This document shows, piece after piece, positions 31,235-39,761 of a stretch of DNA of 64,000 nt. The notes beneath the pieces were generated by a model. It saw only the letters and a list, made by a program, of their open reading frames with translations, made no database searches and was not told where the DNA came from. Numbering within the stretch: the stretch's first letter is position 1; each line of letters starts with the position of its first letter. This DNA is from Verrucomicrobiales bacterium (GTDB lineage Bacteria > Verrucomicrobiota > Verrucomicrobiia > Verrucomicrobiales > DEV007), in contig JANQVJ010000005.1 of the NCBI GenBank assembly GCA_030730365.1, positions 114,143 to 178,142 on the forward strand, in the 5' to 3' direction. A program made the position numbers and the translations under genes.

Positions 31235-32386
31235 TACGCATTGCTTGAGTGGGTGGTTGAGGGGCGACTGACGCCCGGGGGCAAACCAATGGGCTGCACG
31301 GACGAAGAATCTCAAGGAAAATACTTAAGAAACCTTGACAACATGTAAACACTTATTTTCTAATCTTTCATGGCTCTTTCGAGTACGTGTTCGGGGCGAG
31401 GAAGGCGCTAGAAGGCTACTTTCCCGGCCGCGACAGCGATGGAGATCACTTCGTATCTCAATCCGGATCGTCCGGCGGCGTATCCTCAGCCGTTTCGTCC
31501 CGGGTCCACGGCGGGGCTGGCGGAGCACCCGGCTCGGGCGAATCAATGAGACGGTCGAGGTGGAAGGGCGAGAAAGGAGAGCGCGCTAAGATGGTGAACA
31601 TTGTATCAGCGCGACGGCACTTACAGATTGGGCGGTTCCGATCGCCTCGTCCGAGCCCCCCGCGTCCGCCAGTCACCTAGGAGGGAATCTTGCTCGTGGC
31701 CAAATAGCCGGCGAGAGCGGCGTTGGCGCTGCCATTCTCCGCTTCGGTTTGTGCGATCAGGAGGGAGAACGGAAAAGCGACTGACGAAATACAGGAACTT
31801 ATTTTAAGGCCAGGAGGGCGAGATGGCCTGGGTTCCCACCAAGCCGGCGGAAGAATAACGTCCCGAGCTTCGGAGGGTGGGAGATTTCACTCCTGCGCGG
31901 CTGGGGGAACAAGGGGGAGGTGTATTCTCCCGGCCGTCGCAGAGTGATGAAGAGTCCCGATCCGAAAATTAACGAAGCAGAAAAACCCTTATCACACTAC
32001 TTAGAATCCAATGTAATTCCAGTGGTAATTTTTCAAATTTAAGAGTTTTTAAAATTCGATTCGGAATTAAAGCCGACAAGCGATTGAGTCACCTGTGCAA
32101 TTCCTGCGCACATTGCAAATTCAACGGCAGCATGGGGTTTTGGGGTAAAACAGGGTGTCTTATAGGTAATTTTTGTTGGATGCGTTACGCTCTCAGATGG
32201 ATCGTTTAATTATATATAGATAAGTATTTTTCCGAGTAACTACTATAACGAAATTCTATTTTCCGGTTTTATCTTTTACTACTCCCCGGAACGGGTCTTG
32301 ATGGTTCGGTAGAGCGGAGGGGGGATGCGGTGGCCGCGGCGTTTTTACGTCGCATTATTCTTAAGATGTCTTAAACTTATCGCGTC
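31235..32386. other. Long gene-poor gap with AT-rich right half
   Basis: No convincing gene lies in this 1.15-kb stretch. Left of 31.95 kb it is GC-rich with only scattered short frames; the best is a 36-codon ATG frame at 31439-31549 (MEITSYLNPDRPAAYPQPF...) that overlaps a - strand frame and has no ribosome site. From about 31.95 to 32.30 kb composition drops sharply to AT-rich, unlike anything else in the window, and all frames are broken. A palindrome TTAAGA-TG-TCTTAA (32361-32374) lies 13 bp before the ATG of the next gene. The composition break may mark a degraded foreign insertion or a regulatory or RNA region; no known RNA family was recognised. Confidence 0.6.
32361..32374. promoter_or_regulatory. 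Palindrome upstream of the ABC pseudo-ATPase gene
   Basis: TTAAGA-TG-TCTTAA is a perfect 6+2+6 palindrome ending 12 bases before the ATG at 32387. An operator or translation-blocking hairpin is possible. No regulator gene is adjacent, so the assignment is weak. Confidence 0.35.
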
Positions 32387-33169
32387 ATGAATCTGCTCGA
32401 ACTCGAAAATCTCACGCTGAATCGCCCGCGTCTGCGGCGGCGGTGGTTTCAGCACGGGGTGGAGAATGAAGGTCTCATCGAAGGTCTCAGTCTTACGCTC
32501 CGGTCGGGCGGTAGTCTTTGTCTTGTTGGAGGTGAGGAGAGCGGGATGGTGGCGTTGACGCTGGGTATTTTGAAGTTGGAGGGCATCTCCTCGGGCCGGA
32601 TTGTTTTCGGCGGGATCGATCTTACCTCGCTCGGCGACCGGCAGTTCCGCCCGGTGCGGCGGCGACTCCAGGCTGTTTTTCCCGATCATTTCGGGCAGTT
32701 GACCTCCGGCATGACCATCAGCGAGGCGTTTCGTGAGGTGCTTGGCGTCTGGCACCGGAGTGAGTCGAGGGATCAATGGCATGAGCGCGTCGAATCGGCG
32801 ATGGTCTCCTGCGGGTTGCCCGAGGCGGTGCGTGACCTTTATCCGGTGGAGCTCGATGCCGTTGAGCGCCAGCAGGTCGCCCTCGCGAGAGCGCTGCTCA
32901 CGGGCCCGGAGTTAATTATTTGTCACGGACTAACGGCCGGTCTCGATGCGGTGCAGCAGGCCGAGTTGATCAATCTGATGAGACGGGTGCGCGAAGATTT
33001 TAAATTGACCCTACTCGTGGTCACGGACGACCTTGCGGTGGCGCAGCATCTGGGTGATGATATAGGCCTCATCCATCAGGGTCGACTTATTGAGGCAGGC
33101 AGTGTCGAAGCGGTCGTCAATCGGCCGGAACACGATTATACCAGACGTCTCGTAAGTTGTTTCAGGTGA
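32387..33169 (+). CDS. Catalytically degenerate ABC ATPase-like protein
   Basis: The 260-residue protein aligns along its length with OppF/DppF-type ABC ATPases, yet every ATP-hydrolysis motif is replaced. The Walker A region reads GGEESGMVA (48-56), lacking the GK-S/T. The Q-loop glutamine is proline (FPDHFGQ). The LSGGQ signature reads ELDAVER (155-161), although the following QQVALARAL is kept. Walker B reads LIICHG (176-181) in place of LIxxDE. The H-loop reads VTDDLA with Asp for His. Length and hydrophobic core are intact, so this looks like a maintained pseudo-ATPase rather than random decay. It lies 13 bp before rodA. Confidence 0.85.
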   Translation: MNLLELENLTLNRPRLRRRWFQHGVENEGLIEGLSLTLRSGGSLCLVGGEESGMVALTLGILKLEGISSGRIVFGGIDLTSLGDRQFRPVRRRLQAVFPDHFGQLTSGMTISEAFREVLGVWHRSESRDQWHERVESAMVSCGLPEAVRDLYPVELDAVERQQVALARALLTGPELIICHGLTAGLDAVQQAELINLMRRVREDFKLTLLVVTDDLAVAQHLGDDIGLIHQGRLIEAGSVEAVVNRPEHDYTRRLVSCFR

Positions 33170-33182
33170 AGATTAGACGACC

Positions 33183-34364
33183 ATGACTCCTCTTTTCCGG
33201 AAATTCCTCGGCTTGAACTGGCTGCTCTTTGCGAACATCATCGCCCTGATGATCTTCGGTGTTTTCGCGGTCTACAGCGCCTGCTGGATGCGCGAGCATT
33301 CGAATCTTTCCGACAAATGGCGGGATCAGGTCTACTGGATGCTTATCGGCCTCGTTTTCTTTTTCGCGGCGAGCCTCATTGACTACAAATGGGTGCGGTA
33401 TCTCGGCATTCCGTTCTACCTCGCCGCGACCGGGTTGCTTATTTTCACGACTTTTTTCGGAATTGAGATCAACGGAACGAGAGCCTGGCTGGACTTTGGG
33501 CCTGTTCTCCTGCAGCCTTCGCAGCTCGCCATCGCCGGCGGGGTCATTGCTTTGGCGCTGGCCCTCTGCACTCTACACAAGTTACACCCCGTCTTCCGCA
33601 GCTCTTTCGTGAGGCTTTTTGTTACAGGAATCATTGCCGTAATCCCCTTTGTTTTTGTTCTCATACAGGGTGACTTCGGTTCCGCCCTCGTGTGGGTGCC
33701 GGTCTACGGTGCGATGGTGCTCATTGGCAATATTCCGATCCGATACCTCGTCGTGATCGTGCTTTCGGTGACCATGTTCCTGCCCTTTGCTTTTTTCTTC
33801 GGGCTGAAGGACTACCAGAAAAAGCGGATCACGACCCAGATCGAGATGCTGCAGGGAAAAAAAGTCAATATCCGCGCCGAGGCCTACAGCGCCTACAACA
33901 ATCTGCTCGCGATCGGAAGCGGGGGATGGGGAGGGAAGGGGTTTAAGAATCCTGACACCGTTAACAACAAGGGCTTCATCTCTCCCGACACGGCGATTAA
34001 TGATTTCATTTTCCCTGTCCTCGCCGAAGAGCACGGCTTCCGCGGCAGCCTTCTCATGCTAGGGGGATTCATGCTGCTACTTCTGCAATGCGTTTACGTG
34101 GCCTTTTACAGCCGGGACCTCATGGGAAGATTGCTCGTCGTCGGAGTCGTGGGGCTGCTCTTTGCGCATATTTATCAAAATGTCGGGATGAACCTGCTCA
34201 TCATGCCGATCACGGGGATTCCGCTGCCGCTCATCAGCTACGGGGGGACTTTCACGATCGTGATTCTCTTCCTGCTCGGTCTTGTCCAGAGCGTCTGGGT
34301 GCACCGCATCGATCCGGATGAGAAAGCGGCTCGTCCGGTCCTGCAGATTGAGCATCTTGACTGA
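33183..34364 (+). CDS. rodA: RodA/FtsW-family SEDS peptidoglycan glycosyltransferase
   Basis: RodA polymerises peptidoglycan strands during cell elongation, working with a class B PBP. The 393-residue product has about ten membrane helices. It has the SEDS features: an early GVFAVYSA stretch, INGTRAWLDFGPVLLQPSQLA, the loop ISPDTAINDFIFPVLAEEHGFRG, and GMNLLIMPITGIPLPLISYGGT near the end. RodA rather than FtsW is favoured by length and by the absence of division genes nearby, but no mreB or mrdA is in view. It follows the pseudo-ATPase by 13 bp and is probably co-transcribed with it. Confidence 0.92.
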   Translation: MTPLFRKFLGLNWLLFANIIALMIFGVFAVYSACWMREHSNLSDKWRDQVYWMLIGLVFFFAASLIDYKWVRYLGIPFYLAATGLLIFTTFFGIEINGTRAWLDFGPVLLQPSQLAIAGGVIALALALCTLHKLHPVFRSSFVRLFVTGIIAVIPFVFVLIQGDFGSALVWVPVYGAMVLIGNIPIRYLVVIVLSVTMFLPFAFFFGLKDYQKKRITTQIEMLQGKKVNIRAEAYSAYNNLLAIGSGGWGGKGFKNPDTVNNKGFISPDTAINDFIFPVLAEEHGFRGSLLMLGGFMLLLLQCVYVAFYSRDLMGRLLVVGVVGLLFAHIYQNVGMNLLIMPITGIPLPLISYGGTFTIVILFLLGLVQSVWVHRIDPDEKAARPVLQIEHLD

Positions 34365-34459: not shown

Positions 34460-35503
34460 ATGATCGAAGCCCGAAACCTCACGAAACGATATGCCGGACG
34501 CACTGCCGTCGATTCCGTCTCGTTTGAAGTGGGAAAAGGTGAGATTGTCGGCTTTCTAGGTCCGAACGGAGCGGGGAAAAGCACGACGCTGCGAATGCTG
34601 ACCTGTTTTCTTTCCGCCTCCGAGGGGACGGCAACAGTGGCGGGCTATGACATCTACGAGGACTCCATCGAGGTCCGTCGTCGCGTCGGCTACATGCCCG
34701 AGAATGTCCCTCTCTATCCCGACATGCGGATCGACGAATATCTGCGCTTCCGCGCCCGTATCAAAGGCCTCGGCTGGCGGGCGTCACGATTTGCGGTGAG
34801 CGAGGCGATGGACATCTGCAGTCTCGCGGGGGTCGAGAAAAAGATGATCTCGACGCTTTCGAAAGGCTACAAGCAACGGGTCGGTCTCGCCGATGCCCTC
34901 GTCAACAAGCCCGAACTTCTCATCCTCGACGAGCCTACCAACGGACTCGATCCGAATCAGATCAGGCAATCGCGGGAGCTCATTAAGCGGCTCGGTGAGC
35001 GGCACACGATCCTGATTTCCACCCATATTCTCTCGGAAGTGGAGATGACGTGCGGGCGGGTCATCATTATCGATCGCGGGCACATTCGCGCGTCTGATTC
35101 CCCGCAGAATCTGATCCGGCGGCTCCGCAAGCCCGGCTCGGTCATCCTCGAGCTGAAGGGCGTGGTCGATCCCGCGAAAGCGAAGATCGAAGCGATCGAC
35201 GGGGTCAAAGAGGTGGGGGTTATCCATGAGCGCGGTGACTGGGTCTCTTTTGCGATCACGACTGACCCTCTGATCGATGTGCGCGAGGATCTCTTTGCTC
35301 TTGTGCAGCGCGAAAAGTGGAGCATCAGGGAACTCGCCAGCCGAGCCGCCTCGCTCGAAGATGCCTTCGTCGATATTCTGCAGCAAACACCCGACGCCGC
35401 CGTGCCGGCTGTGGAGGCGCCGAATCTGGACCTCGAAGACTCCGCTGCCGAATCCGATGACGACGCGGAGAATGAATCCAACTCTCTTACGGCCTCGACC
35501 TGA
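34460..35503 (+). CDS. ABC transporter ATP-binding protein (GldA-like)
   Basis: The ATG at 34460 (MIEARNLTKRYAGRTAVDSV) gives 347 residues. The ATPase motifs are intact: Walker A GPNGAGKST, signature LSKGYKQR and Walker B LLILDEPTNGLDP, with a His in the H-loop STHIL. After the nucleotide-binding domain there is a ~110-residue C-terminal region and an acidic tail (LEDSAAESDDDAENE). Followed by GldF-, GldG- and DUF4340-like genes, it forms the Gld-type exporter module found in Bacteroidetes, Planctomycetes and Verrucomicrobia. Confidence 0.92.
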   Translation: MIEARNLTKRYAGRTAVDSVSFEVGKGEIVGFLGPNGAGKSTTLRMLTCFLSASEGTATVAGYDIYEDSIEVRRRVGYMPENVPLYPDMRIDEYLRFRARIKGLGWRASRFAVSEAMDICSLAGVEKKMISTLSKGYKQRVGLADALVNKPELLILDEPTNGLDPNQIRQSRELIKRLGERHTILISTHILSEVEMTCGRVIIIDRGHIRASDSPQNLIRRLRKPGSVILELKGVVDPAKAKIEAIDGVKEVGVIHERGDWVSFAITTDPLIDVREDLFALVQREKWSIRELASRAASLEDAFVDILQQTPDAAVPAVEAPNLDLEDSAAESDDDAENESNSLTAST

Positions 35504-35533
35504 CCCTCCCTAGTCGCCGATTTTTTCACCCCC

Positions 35534-36289
35534 ATGCGCGCCTTTTTCATCCTGTTCGGCAAAGAGCTGAGGTCATTTTTCCTCTCTCCGCTGGCCTATG
35601 TGGTGATGGCGCTGTTCACTTTCCTGAACGGATGGCTCTTCATCAGCATGGTCAAGGCGATGCAGTTGCAGGTCAGCGCGCGCAGTCTCATCTACAATCT
35701 GTTTTCTTCGGGCTGGTTCTGGATGGGGTATTTCATCCTTTTTCCCCTTATTACAATGCGGCTCTTCGCCGAAGAAAGGAAAATGGGCACGATCGAGGGC
35801 CTTCTCACCGCGCCGGTGCGCACGGCGGAGGTGGTCCTCGCGAAGTATGCCGCGACCGTCGTGGTTTACCTTGTCATTGTTGCTCCGGTCTTTCTCTTTT
35901 TCCCGCTCTTCCAGGCGGTCACCGGGGAGGGGGCCGCCTTTCACTCCGGTGCGGTCTGGGGCAGCGCCATGGGGTTGATCCTCGTGGGGCTCTTTAACGT
36001 CGCGATCGGGACGCTCGCCTCCGCCCTGACGACGAACCAGCTCATCGCGGCGATGCTAACTTTTGTCTTTGTGATGCTCCATTACTTCCTCGGATTCCTC
36101 CAGAATTTCGGGATGGTGCCGGGCTCGGCCTGGACGGCGGGGATGGCGTATTTTTCAACAACAGAGCACATCCAGTCGCTCAGCGAGGGGCTCATCGACA
36201 GTCGTCCGGTGATTTATTACCTCAGCTTCAGCGCGGTGCTGCTGGCCTTCACTCACCTCGTCATCGAGTCGAGGAAGTGGCGGGTTTGA
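35534..36289 (+). CDS. ABC transporter permease (GldF-like)
   Basis: The 251-residue inner-membrane subunit has six membrane helices and the ABC-2 type sequence LFGKELRSFFLSPLAYVVMALFTFLNGWLF...LITMRLFAEERKMGTIEGLLTAPV, a GldF/NosY-like pattern. It sits 30 bp after the ATPase gene and 28 bp before the GldG-like gene. The substrate of these exporters is not known; the name comes from gliding-motility genetics in Bacteroidetes and does not imply gliding here. Confidence 0.9.
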   Translation: MRAFFILFGKELRSFFLSPLAYVVMALFTFLNGWLFISMVKAMQLQVSARSLIYNLFSSGWFWMGYFILFPLITMRLFAEERKMGTIEGLLTAPVRTAEVVLAKYAATVVVYLVIVAPVFLFFPLFQAVTGEGAAFHSGAVWGSAMGLILVGLFNVAIGTLASALTTNQLIAAMLTFVFVMLHYFLGFLQNFGMVPGSAWTAGMAYFSTTEHIQSLSEGLIDSRPVIYYLSFSAVLLAFTHLVIESRKWRV

Positions 36290-36317
36290 TGCCCTGATAC
36301 GACAAAGGAATTCGAGA

Positions 36318-37850
36318 ATGGCGAAAAAGGATAAACAGACCCCGAAGAGCAAGGTCAGCCGGCCCGGCAAGACCGAGGGTGCCCTCTTGTCCTCGACGGG
36401 GCGTCGCCTCCAGCGCTACCGCACCGCCGCGCTCGTGGCGATCCAGGCGGTGCTGATTTTCATCGTCTTCCTCCAGGTGAACTACCTCAGCTGTCGCCGT
36501 CACAGCACCTGGGACCTCACTCAGAATCGGCGTTTCACGGTGTCTGATACGACGAAAAACTACCTCGGCAGTCTGGGCGGCGAAGTGCGTCTCGTGATGG
36601 CCTTTCTCGGCACCTCTGAGTTGCATTCCGAGGTCAAAGGTCTCGTCGCCGAGTATGACCGCATTGGTGGTGACGCGGTCTCGGCCGAGTATCTCGATCT
36701 CAGCCGCAGTCGCTCCCGCATCGCGGAATTGAAGGACAAACATCAACTCCAGTTCAGCGGCGATCAGATCGTCGTCTTCGGCGAATCGGGCCGCATTAAG
36801 ACGATCAGCGCGGAAGAACTCGTCGGCCGCGACGCCAACAGCGGGCGGGTCGTCGAATTCAAGGGCGAAGAGGTCCTCACCGCCGCGATTCTCGAAGTCA
36901 CCGAGCAGAAACAGCGCAAGATCTACCTCGTCACCGGCGACCGCCGCGCCGACGAACTCGTCCCCATTGCCGAACAACTCCAACCGCTCGCCAATGCGCA
37001 GAATGCGCGTCTCGAGGGTCTCGTCCTCGAAGGGCGCGAAGAGATTCCCGCAGACGCCGATGCTCTCTTTTTCCCGGGAAATTCCGAGGACCTCACCGAG
37101 CGTGAACTTACCCTCGTGCGGGACTACTGGGAGAGTCGCCGCGGCGGACTCGTCATCTTTCTCGATCCGAACGCGGAGACTCCTGTGCTGAACTCGCTGT
37201 TGCGCGAGCACGGCGTCGCGCCCCGGCCCGACCGGGTCCTCAGTGTCGTCAGCATCCCCGGGGTCGCCGCCCGCAAGACCTACGACGTCCCCGTCTCGCT
37301 GATGCCCGGCCCTGGCCCGACCCGCGACCTGCCCGCGCTCTCGACGCGGCTGATCGATCAGACGCAGTCCATCGAAGTCCTCTACGAGGACGACCTCCTG
37401 CTCTCGGAAAATATCCGGCCGCTCCCGCTTATGATCGCCGCGACCGGATTCTGGGGCGAGACCGATTACCAGGCCGAAGAGATCTCGTTCACCCCTGGGG
37501 TAGATCGCGGGCAGCCCGATCCCGTCTTTACTGCCGCCTCGGTCGAAAAGGGCGTGCAGGGAGATCCCGGCCTTTCCCAGGGCTCGTCGCGTCTCGTCGT
37601 CGTGGGCAATGCGAACGTCATCTCGCCCGAGGGGAACTCCGCCAAGGTCGCGGCCGACTTCACGATGGCCTCGCTCAACTGGGTCATGAACCGCGAGGAA
37701 CTGATGGGCATCTCGCCGCGTCGTCCGACCTTTTTCACCCTCAGCATCAGCCCCGACAAGGTTGCCTTTTTGCAGTCTCTCCTCATCATGGTCCTGCCAG
37801 GGGCGGCCCTGATCCTCGGGGGATTCGTTTGGATGCGACGCCGTGCCTAG
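36318..37850 (+). CDS. GldG-family ABC transport system auxiliary protein
   Basis: The 510-residue protein has a basic N-terminus and a helix near residues 36-54, a large periplasmic domain (TWDLTQNRRFTVSDTTKNYL, VSAEYLDLSRS, IYLVTGDRRADELVP) and a C-terminal helix (SLLIMVLPGAALILGGFVWMRRRA). This is the GldG/DUF7088-type arrangement. It follows the permease and precedes a DUF4340 gene by six bases, so all four are one operon. Confidence 0.88.
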   Translation: MAKKDKQTPKSKVSRPGKTEGALLSSTGRRLQRYRTAALVAIQAVLIFIVFLQVNYLSCRRHSTWDLTQNRRFTVSDTTKNYLGSLGGEVRLVMAFLGTSELHSEVKGLVAEYDRIGGDAVSAEYLDLSRSRSRIAELKDKHQLQFSGDQIVVFGESGRIKTISAEELVGRDANSGRVVEFKGEEVLTAAILEVTEQKQRKIYLVTGDRRADELVPIAEQLQPLANAQNARLEGLVLEGREEIPADADALFFPGNSEDLTERELTLVRDYWESRRGGLVIFLDPNAETPVLNSLLREHGVAPRPDRVLSVVSIPGVAARKTYDVPVSLMPGPGPTRDLPALSTRLIDQTQSIEVLYEDDLLLSENIRPLPLMIAATGFWGETDYQAEEISFTPGVDRGQPDPVFTAASVEKGVQGDPGLSQGSSRLVVVGNANVISPEGNSAKVAADFTMASLNWVMNREELMGISPRRPTFFTLSISPDKVAFLQSLLIMVLPGAALILGGFVWMRRRA

Positions 37851-37856
37851 TATGCC

Positions 37857-39761
37857 ATGAGAATCATCACCACCGCCATCCTCGCCGGGACCGTCATCGC
37901 CCTCGCGGTCGCGACCTATTTTGTGGATCGGGAACCGTCCGCCGGTGAGCGAGCCGCGGCGAGGGCGAATGTGCTGGTGCGTCTCGACATCGACGGGCTC
38001 GACCGCATCGCTATCGAAAAGGGCGGTATGAAGACGCTGCTGGTGAAGCGGGAAGGGTTCTGGTTCTTCTCCGAGCCGCAGGAGGACCGTGTCGACGCGA
38101 CCGTGATCCTCACGCTGCTCGATAAACTCAATCATCTCGGAGTCGTCGACACCATCAGCGGCGGGGAGAGTGGAATGAGCCCGGAGCAAATCGGACTGAG
38201 CGGTGACACGGCGATCCGCGTCACGCTCTCGGGTAAAGCCGGCGAAGAGGGCGAGGAAATTGAAGAGGTCATTGTTCTCGGGGCCGAAGCTCCGCGCACC
38301 GATTCGATTTACGCGAGTCGCGAAGGCGGCGGCGGGGGCACTTTCGTCATCAATACCAACCCGCGCGCCTGGTTGGAGAATCCGCTCGAGACGCTGCGCG
38401 ATCGTCGTGTCCTAGGCGTGCCGGTCGAGGCGGTGGTGCAACTCGTCATCCGGCAGGCGTCCGGTCAGATGTCTCTGCAACGGCGCGTCACGCCGCCTCT
38501 GCAGGACTGGGCACTCGTAGAACCGCTGCGAACCTGGGCGAATCGTGAAGCCCTCGATCAACTGCTCACCGACATCGGTGCGTTGCGTATCGAAGAAGTC
38601 GCCGCCGACGTTGTCGCGGGCGAACCGCTCCCCGATCCGCTTCCCGAAAAATCGGCGGTGCTCCAGTTTCAAGTCTACGGTGTCGAGCAACCGCTCACTA
38701 TTTATATGAAGGAAATCGAGCCCGGCGGGGAAGGGACTCGAGCGCTCGTCGAGGCCCGTGTCTCGGACCGGCCTCTCGTCTATCAAGTGCGATCAGACCT
38801 GCTCACGAAGCTGCCCGGCTCCGCCAACGATCTGCGCGACCGCACTCTCGCCCGCATCCCGATGGAGTTTCTCGACACCATCACCGTGCAGAGCCGCATT
38901 GATCCTCTCGTGTATCTCAAGGCCGACCGATCGGCAGAGAATCCGAACTGGACGGTGAAGCTGAACAATAATCTCGTGCCCGCCAATTTTGCCGAAGTCT
39001 CCGCTCTCGTGAACGCGGTGAACGAGGCCGCGATCCGCGAGTTCACTTCGGACTCTGCGGAGAACCTGACAGAATACGGACTGAATCCTCCGGCGCGGCG
39101 GGTCATCTTCAATCTCGTCTTTCCCGGTGCCCCGCTCGAGGACGGCAGCCCCGGTCAGGTCCAGCAAATGGCGCGCGTGCTCAATCTCGGCTGGCGCGAG
39201 GGTGATGAGGAGCGTCTCTACGCGAACTTCGAGGGTGAGCCCTATGTCTATCAGCTCGATCCCACTTTTGTGACCCATATCCCGACTCACCCGATCAAGT
39301 GGCGTTCGCTCAGTGTGCTGACTTTTAACCCGATGCACCTCAAGTCGATCACGCGGGAGATGCCGGAAAAAGAGAACCTGAAGCTCGACTACGACTACCG
39401 TCGCGACCAGTGGGCGGCCTCCCGCAGCGGGGTCGATGCCACACCGAGTCTCGACATTCCCTCGGCCAGGCGGCTTCGCGACCGGCTTGGGGCACTCACT
39501 GCGAGCGGGTGGTATCTCTCTCTTGGGCCCGCCTACGAGGCTCTCGAAACGCCCAGCGCCCAGTTCAAAATTGTCACGACCGAACTCGACCGGGCAACCA
39601 ATGAACCGATCGAGGTCACGCAGATCGTGACGCTGGCACCGGCTTCGACGAATCTTTACTTCGGCCGCATCGAAGGCTCGCCCGATGTCTTTTTCCTCGA
39701 TCACGAGACCTACCGTGATCTCATTAGACCGGTCACGACAGCGCGGATCTCCAATCCCTGA
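37857..39761 (+). CDS. DUF4340 domain-containing protein
   Basis: The 634-residue product starts with a membrane-anchor helix (IITTAILAGTVIALAVATYFV) and then the DUF4340 pattern (IDGLDRIAIEKGGMKTLLVKREGFWFFSEPQEDRVDATVILTLLDKLNHL), repeated in a second copy further on. The family is a regular companion of GldA-F-G modules and is likely a periplasmic, membrane-tethered partner. Its role is unknown. It begins 6 bp after the GldG-like gene and is followed 6 bp later by the diheme lipoprotein. Confidence 0.88.
   Translation: MRIITTAILAGTVIALAVATYFVDREPSAGERAAARANVLVRLDIDGLDRIAIEKGGMKTLLVKREGFWFFSEPQEDRVDATVILTLLDKLNHLGVVDTISGGESGMSPEQIGLSGDTAIRVTLSGKAGEEGEEIEEVIVLGAEAPRTDSIYASREGGGGGTFVINTNPRAWLENPLETLRDRRVLGVPVEAVVQLVIRQASGQMSLQRRVTPPLQDWALVEPLRTWANREALDQLLTDIGALRIEEVAADVVAGEPLPDPLPEKSAVLQFQVYGVEQPLTIYMKEIEPGGEGTRALVEARVSDRPLVYQVRSDLLTKLPGSANDLRDRTLARIPMEFLDTITVQSRIDPLVYLKADRSAENPNWTVKLNNNLVPANFAEVSALVNAVNEAAIREFTSDSAENLTEYGLNPPARRVIFNLVFPGAPLEDGSPGQVQQMARVLNLGWREGDEERLYANFEGEPYVYQLDPTFVTHIPTHPIKWRSLSVLTFNPMHLKSITREMPEKENLKLDYDYRRDQWAASRSGVDATPSLDIPSARRLRDRLGALTASGWYLSLGPAYEALETPSAQFKIVTTELDRATNEPIEVTQIVTLAPASTNLYFGRIEGSPDVFFLDHETYRDLIRPVTTARISNP

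Follow-up and report, generated by a model that had tools for sequence, protein, structure and literature searches.

An OppF-derived ABC pseudo-ATPase maintained next to rodA in a genus of Verrucomicrobiales

We analyzed a 64,000-nucleotide stretch of a Verrucomicrobiales genome (the window) and found that the gene immediately upstream of rodA encodes an ABC protein in which every motif of an active ATPase has been replaced and which is nevertheless kept under purifying selection. That this gene encodes a maintained pseudo-ATPase is very well supported, and its exaptation from an OppF already linked to rodA is also well supported, with somewhat less assurance. The preservation of a gene stripped of its ATPase parts suggests a new, non-catalytic job, one that probably has to do with growth of the wall. 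Few known ATPases are as common as ABC domains, and a stand-alone nucleotide-binding domain (NBD) without any catalytic motif, kept by selection and accompanied by intact and partly degenerate relatives, provides a stepwise natural record of the passage from enzyme to non-enzyme.

Results

The gene and its product

The pseudo-ATPase gene is an open reading frame with an ATG start on the forward strand (positions 32387 to 33169; 260 amino acids). A 13-bp gap (33170 to 33182) separates its stop from the ATG of rodA (33183 to 34364, same strand); the intact frame and the 13-bp spacing given in the earlier note were both borne out. The rodA product, a SEDS peptidoglycan polymerase, matched Pfam FTSW_RODA_SPOVE (PF01098) with 197.2 bits against a cut-off of 26.4, and its best NCBIfam model was TIGR02210 RodA, at 260.6 bits and under that model's cut-off of 336.7. 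The upstream protein matched Pfam ABC_tran (PF00005) over residues 32 to 179 with 34.9 bits against a cut-off of 25. Its best NCBIfam models were YejF and OppF, with scores below the equivalog cut-offs of both (157.1 versus 834 and 144.3 versus 540), as was also the case for DppF (105.8 versus 660) and for the FtsE model TIGR02673 (72.3 bits versus 264.85). AlphaFold2, given an alignment of only nine sequences, predicted an intact NBD fold (pLDDT, 86.6; pTM, 0.87), and a Foldseek comparison with the PDB returned E. coli OppF and DppF first (8z21_D and 8z1w_D; TMq, 0.87 to 0.88). Pfam, NCBIfam, and the PDB comparison agreed in assigning the protein to the OppF/DppF group. It had been described as aligning end to end with these ATPases; the alignment holds for the NBD core (about residues 26 to 258), but the C-terminal extension of full-length OppF and DppF is absent.

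Neither opp permease or OppD genes nor ftsX were found among the genes adjoining the pseudo-ATPase gene, whose neighbors were rodA and varied upstream genes. The approximately 1 kb upstream of it (31316 to 32386) contained no convincing gene, no Rfam match to an RNA element was obtained upstream, and promoter and terminator scans gave results near chance. On the 3' side of rodA (34460 to 39761) lies a GldA/GldF/GldG-like ABC-2 exporter cluster together with a gene for a 634-amino-acid protein, in an order conserved over much of the genus. The pseudo-ATPase is unlikely to be a partner of this exporter: in the stretch read after rodA in genera with partly degenerate orthologues (g15, g16, g18, g23, and g26), the exporter genes were not seen.

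Loss of the ATPase motifs

The set of motifs found in active ABC ATPases has been replaced throughout the window protein. When aligned with intact OppF sequences, Walker A (residues 48 to 55; 32528 to 32551, forward strand, as for all motifs here) reads GGEESGMV rather than GESGSGKS/T, and the Q-loop (residues 98 to 101; 32678 to 32689) reads FPDH rather than FQDP. The former LSGGQ signature (residues 156 to 162; 32852 to 32872) is LDAVERQ, newly fixed, with LDAVER standing where the intact consensus has FSGGQR. Walker B (residues 176 to 181; 32912 to 32929) is LIICHG instead of LICDEP, the longer stretch being LIICHGL against an intact consensus of FLICDEP, and the H-loop (residues 213 to 216; 33023 to 33034) is TDDL instead of AHDL. 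The D-loop is retained (AGLD versus the intact SALD; residues 184 to 187; 32936 to 32947), and its Asp187 is present in every genus, intermediate, and intact member of the alignment.

Across the genus, the Walker A Ser/Thr, the Q-loop Gln, LSGGQ, and the H-loop His are gone from all 22 members, with the His-to-Asp change fixed in 22 of 22 and SGGQR switched to DAVER. The Walker A Lys, lost from the window protein, is retained in 11 of the 22 orthologues. The statement that all five catalytic elements are missing is correct for the window protein, then, but not for the genus as a whole, and the suggestion that they were lost at once gives way to a graded series of several stages within the family (see below). 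Sequencing or assembly error was ruled out, because the cluster's next ABC gene (34460 to 35500) carries every motif and the 22 genomes concur.

Selection on the orthologues

Full-length orthologues were found in 22 genomes of the genus, including that of the window, and a contig-edge fragment was found in another. All were open, without a frame break in any of the 22 genomes, and all lay directly 5' of rodA. The shared degenerate motifs and the conserved neighborhood that had been proposed as a check were present in 22 of 22, and none was intact. The gap to rodA ranged from -1 to 29 bp in the full-length copies, and in one genome (G045) the stop of the pseudo-ATPase gene overlaps the rodA start. 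The median gap was 13 bp in this degenerate genus versus 42 bp for the intact copies of family f4 (P = 3e-5), a comparison between genomes that are not independent; the genus counts are likewise not independent, and many of the genomes are metagenome assemblies.

Between close relatives in the genus, omega was 0.09 to 0.15 (0.085 to 0.147), for example, 0.147 between the window genome and G023 and 0.085 between G012 and G046. The dN/dS check suggested in the earlier note was therefore answered by values of about 0.1 and not 1. Values of 0.2 to 0.5 were obtained for more distant pairs and for pairs with the long-branch genome G039. In ten pairs dN was lower than dS (Fisher P < 1e-18). The lowest pN/pS of the gene, 0.134, was measured for residues 141 to 180, the former signature region, which speaks against decay, as a decaying enzyme should relax most there. 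At 23 positions a residue fixed in the intact group had been switched to another fixed residue, and 13 more positions were newly fixed. These omega values and the switched, re-fixed residues rule out recent decay. Taken together, the results give the gene the features of a pseudoenzyme: its catalytic residues are gone, its predicted fold is kept, and it is under purifying selection.

Sixteen of the 36 switched or newly fixed positions fall within residues 95 to 165, the helical part running from the Q-loop to the signature (P = 0.016). The helical subdomain of OppF faces the membrane subunits and their coupling helices in ABC importers. Because the newly fixed residues cluster in this membrane-subunit-facing part, their enrichment suggests that the protein may still dock on a membrane protein. 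An AlphaFold2 model of a read-through fusion of the pseudo-ATPase and RodA had a pLDDT of 37.7 and a pTM of 0.22, its alignment being too shallow.

Ancestry of the OppF-rodA pair

An intact OppF gene was found directly 5' of rodA outside the window's family. In family f4 of the same order this arrangement was present at every sampled locus with a readable upstream stretch, and it was also found in 5 of 8 sampled from f3 and in the single genome of f5 but in none from f2. Such an OppF is carried by 86 of the 117 genomes from a second order of the class, and at all 31 loci inspected there, rodA lay 12 to 159 bp downstream on the same strand and the motifs were intact. The pair was observed over two orders (loci L270 to L299 and L261 in the second order; L177 to L201 in f3 and f4). 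Since intact OppF genes stand 5' of rodA in other families and in the second order, the pairing predates both the split of the two orders and the loss of ATPase function. The ancestor of the gene was thus an OppF-type ATPase with its motifs intact and already located next to rodA, an ancestry that the earlier note had missed.

The alignment showed intact motifs in f3, f4, and f5 and in genus g20 of the window's own family, f1, within which the motifs form a series. From g20 at the intact end, it passes through g21, which keeps Walker A, the Q-loop Gln, and the H-loop His, to g26, which keeps Walker A, and to g15, g16, g18, and g23, where some members retain the Walker A Lys and some the H-loop His. 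The window's genus is at the far end, fully degenerate except for the Lys in half of its members. On a tree, all 65 rodA-adjacent sequences fell on one side of a single branch from 25 OppD/OppF paralogues, with a support of only 76; G020 and G039 had long branches. It is this grouping, together with the graded series at one syntenic place, that points to descent of the window gene from an OppF-type ancestor. The RodA tree placed the degenerate group in one clade (support, 97), and because g21 falls outside the clade running from g26 to g1, erosion may have happened twice.

The genes farther upstream also bear on this history. thiG precedes the ATPase-rodA pair in g15, g21, g23, and g26 (loci L098, L101, L104, and L109 to L111) and directly precedes rodA in g10, g13, and g22, from which the ATPase gene is absent (loci L122 to L128). 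This shared context indicates that the ATPase gene was cleanly lost or gained between these genera. Genes other than thiG lie upstream of the pair in the window's genus; the pairing persists as its upstream neighbors change.

A second OppF

Besides the pseudo-subunit, the window genome encodes two D-F pairs, both intact, and two pairs of B-C permeases. A second type of OppF, represented in this genome by G000:C79 (at least 63% identity), was found in f1, f2, f3, and f6 but in 0 of 17 from f4, and it was absent from three second-order genomes that carry the rodA-adjacent OppF. In f4 and these three genomes, which have no second OppF, the rodA-adjacent copy stays intact, and all cases of its erosion or loss in the order fall in groups that have a second OppF. 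This correlation, over few independent lineages, is consistent with the second OppF having released the rodA-adjacent copy by redundancy. Both copies are held with intact motifs in f3 and g20, so a second copy would permit erosion but not force it. There are also exceptions: in family f10, which belongs to the second order, rodA is accompanied neither by OppF nor by the second OppF, and no second-OppF match was found in G076, G087, G014, G063, or G131, single genomes from eroded or lossy groups, some of which perhaps reflect assembly gaps.

Co-occurrence with RodA and the elongasome

Three genomes of the genus that are 91 to 92% complete (G011, G014, and G022) were without RodA, true MreB, MreC, and the pseudo-ATPase gene. 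They form a sub-lineage with 3.5-Mb genomes (loci L131 and L268). The flanking genes in G014 are intact around a 99-codon rodA remnant, and a single deletion thus removed rodA and the pseudo-ATPase gene together, so that their co-loss may be a matter of linkage. The mreB and mreC genes fall on another contig in G014, which indicates that the entire elongation system was abandoned. Only a few events underlie the co-loss with RodA, MreB, and MreC.

RodA is not strictly dependent on the pseudo-ATPase, because two other genomes of the genus, G041 and G044, keep RodA (as well as MreB and MreC) without the gene. RodA without the gene was likewise found in several f1 genera and in family f2; the losses comprise G041/G044, g10, g13, g14, g19, g22, and f2. 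Conversely, no case of the pseudo-ATPase gene without RodA was seen in the genomes examined. The RodA proteins of G041 and G044 shared only seven substitutions, most of them in hydrophobic segments, with no clear change at a putative contact surface. Two oddities of rodA itself were also observed. In g27 the first gene is followed in tandem by another, divergent RodA-like gene with about 40% identity (L267; G090:C151:56474-59014), and in G068 (L103) rodA follows an ATPase gene that is partly degenerate and carries an in-frame TAA some 160 codons into rodA, representing either an assembly error or a pseudogene.

Discussion

A functional tie to RodA is our best single guess, although we would not put it above an even chance. 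On this reading, which is equally balanced between belief and doubt in its details, the protein is an exapted OppF subunit that now acts as a non-catalytic docking or regulatory partner, most likely of RodA or its complex. The ancestor would have served as F subunit in a peptide transporter encoded at dispersed loci, and another OppF, encoded at a different site, would have taken over the transport work, freeing the rodA-adjacent copy. Stepwise erosion of the ATPase motifs took place in one family, and in the window's genus all of them are gone. Among the least certain steps are those that follow: the remaining protein would no longer hydrolyze ATP; its helical subdomain, which in OppF contacts the membrane coupling helices, would serve for cytoplasmic docking or regulation; the docking target would most likely be RodA or its complex; and tight co-translation would make the protein in step with RodA.

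A bolder extension, which we offer tentatively and are inclined to doubt, is that OppF and RodA form an unrecognized two-gene module in this class of Verrucomicrobiota, with the ABC NBD acting directly on the SEDS polymerase, in most lineages as an active ATPase and here as a non-hydrolyzing subunit of RodA. If so, the active form may couple wall elongation to peptide uptake or to the energy state, and the form found in this family would be an ABC pseudo-ATPase that stands alone and serves a polymerase of the cell wall. The pairing, conserved over two orders, points to a possible new regulator of the polymerase chiefly responsible for wall elongation, in bacteria whose wall biology has been little studied.

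The main rival is a role in regulating a transporter. The protein could still belong to a peptide ABC transporter, as a catalytically dead F that pairs with an OppD and OppBC and forms the inhibitory or structural half; its position next to rodA would then be a relic. Its OppF-like ancestor, the retention of the D-loop and helical subdomain, and the frequency of degenerate sites among ABC transporters (PMC7756269) are all in keeping with this, and f4 genomes have orphan OppD genes and orphan OppBC pairs that possibly need this F. We nonetheless consider it unlikely, as the D, F, and B-C sets of the window genome balance without the pseudo-subunit and the gene is absent where the elongasome was lost but peptide transporters were kept. 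In addition, the Walker A/B and the signature halves of the composite site are both lost, and a D-F dimer would therefore have no complete site.

Somewhat less likely again is a cytosolic function unrelated to either RodA or transport, with the adjacency inherited and kept by operon structure. RodA works without the gene in sister lineages, and the contact with RodA is putative, as this explanation would have it; but the adjacency has persisted across two orders despite changing upstream neighbors, the gap to rodA is shorter after the loss of catalysis, and none of the genomes examined had the gene without rodA. Slow decay, in which a relaxed gene is heading for the loss already seen in G041 and G044, is strongly disfavored and very improbable. 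The several losses of the gene, the long branches of G020 and G039, and omega values of up to about 0.5 in distant pairs and pairs with G039 would fit such a course, but the low omega between close relatives, the 22 unbroken frames, and the switching and re-fixation of the motifs do not. Least probable of all is a purely cis-acting role, in which the expression of rodA is set by translation through the sequence and the cell could dispense with the protein, since such coupling, for all that the short gaps and the stop/start overlap in G045 would suit it, needs neither amino acid-level selection over the whole length nor a preserved fold.

Our search of the open-access literature, with most subscription journals outside its scope, found nothing on an OppF-rodA pairing or on an ABC pseudo-ATPase acting with RodA, and the window gene resembles several known systems only in part. 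It is like the C-terminal NBDs of OppF, DppF, and YejF in sequence, predicted fold, and ancestry. It differs from them in that its catalytic motifs are all replaced, its scores lie below the NCBIfam cut-offs, and the C-terminal extension is absent, and also in its setting, where rodA is the constant neighbor and no opp permease genes adjoin. FtsE, with FtsX, is similarly an ABC NBD genetically linked to the peptidoglycan machinery; however, FtsE is an active ATPase working with FtsX, whereas the window protein has neither the ATPase motifs nor an FtsX neighbor and has rodA as its partner gene. Heterodimeric ABC exporters have degenerate nucleotide-binding sites in which catalytic residues were lost from an NBD that was kept (PMC7756269). 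One of their two sites stays active within the transporter, whereas here a single subunit lacks both its Walker half and its signature half, and no transporter partner is encoded close by. Finally, RagB/YrrS is a stimulator of RodA in Bacillus subtilis, an accessory protein proposed to tune RodA activity (PMC12457691). It spans the membrane, carries an extracellular domain, and is unrelated to ABC NBDs, and the likeness to the window protein lies in the proposed role of tuning RodA.
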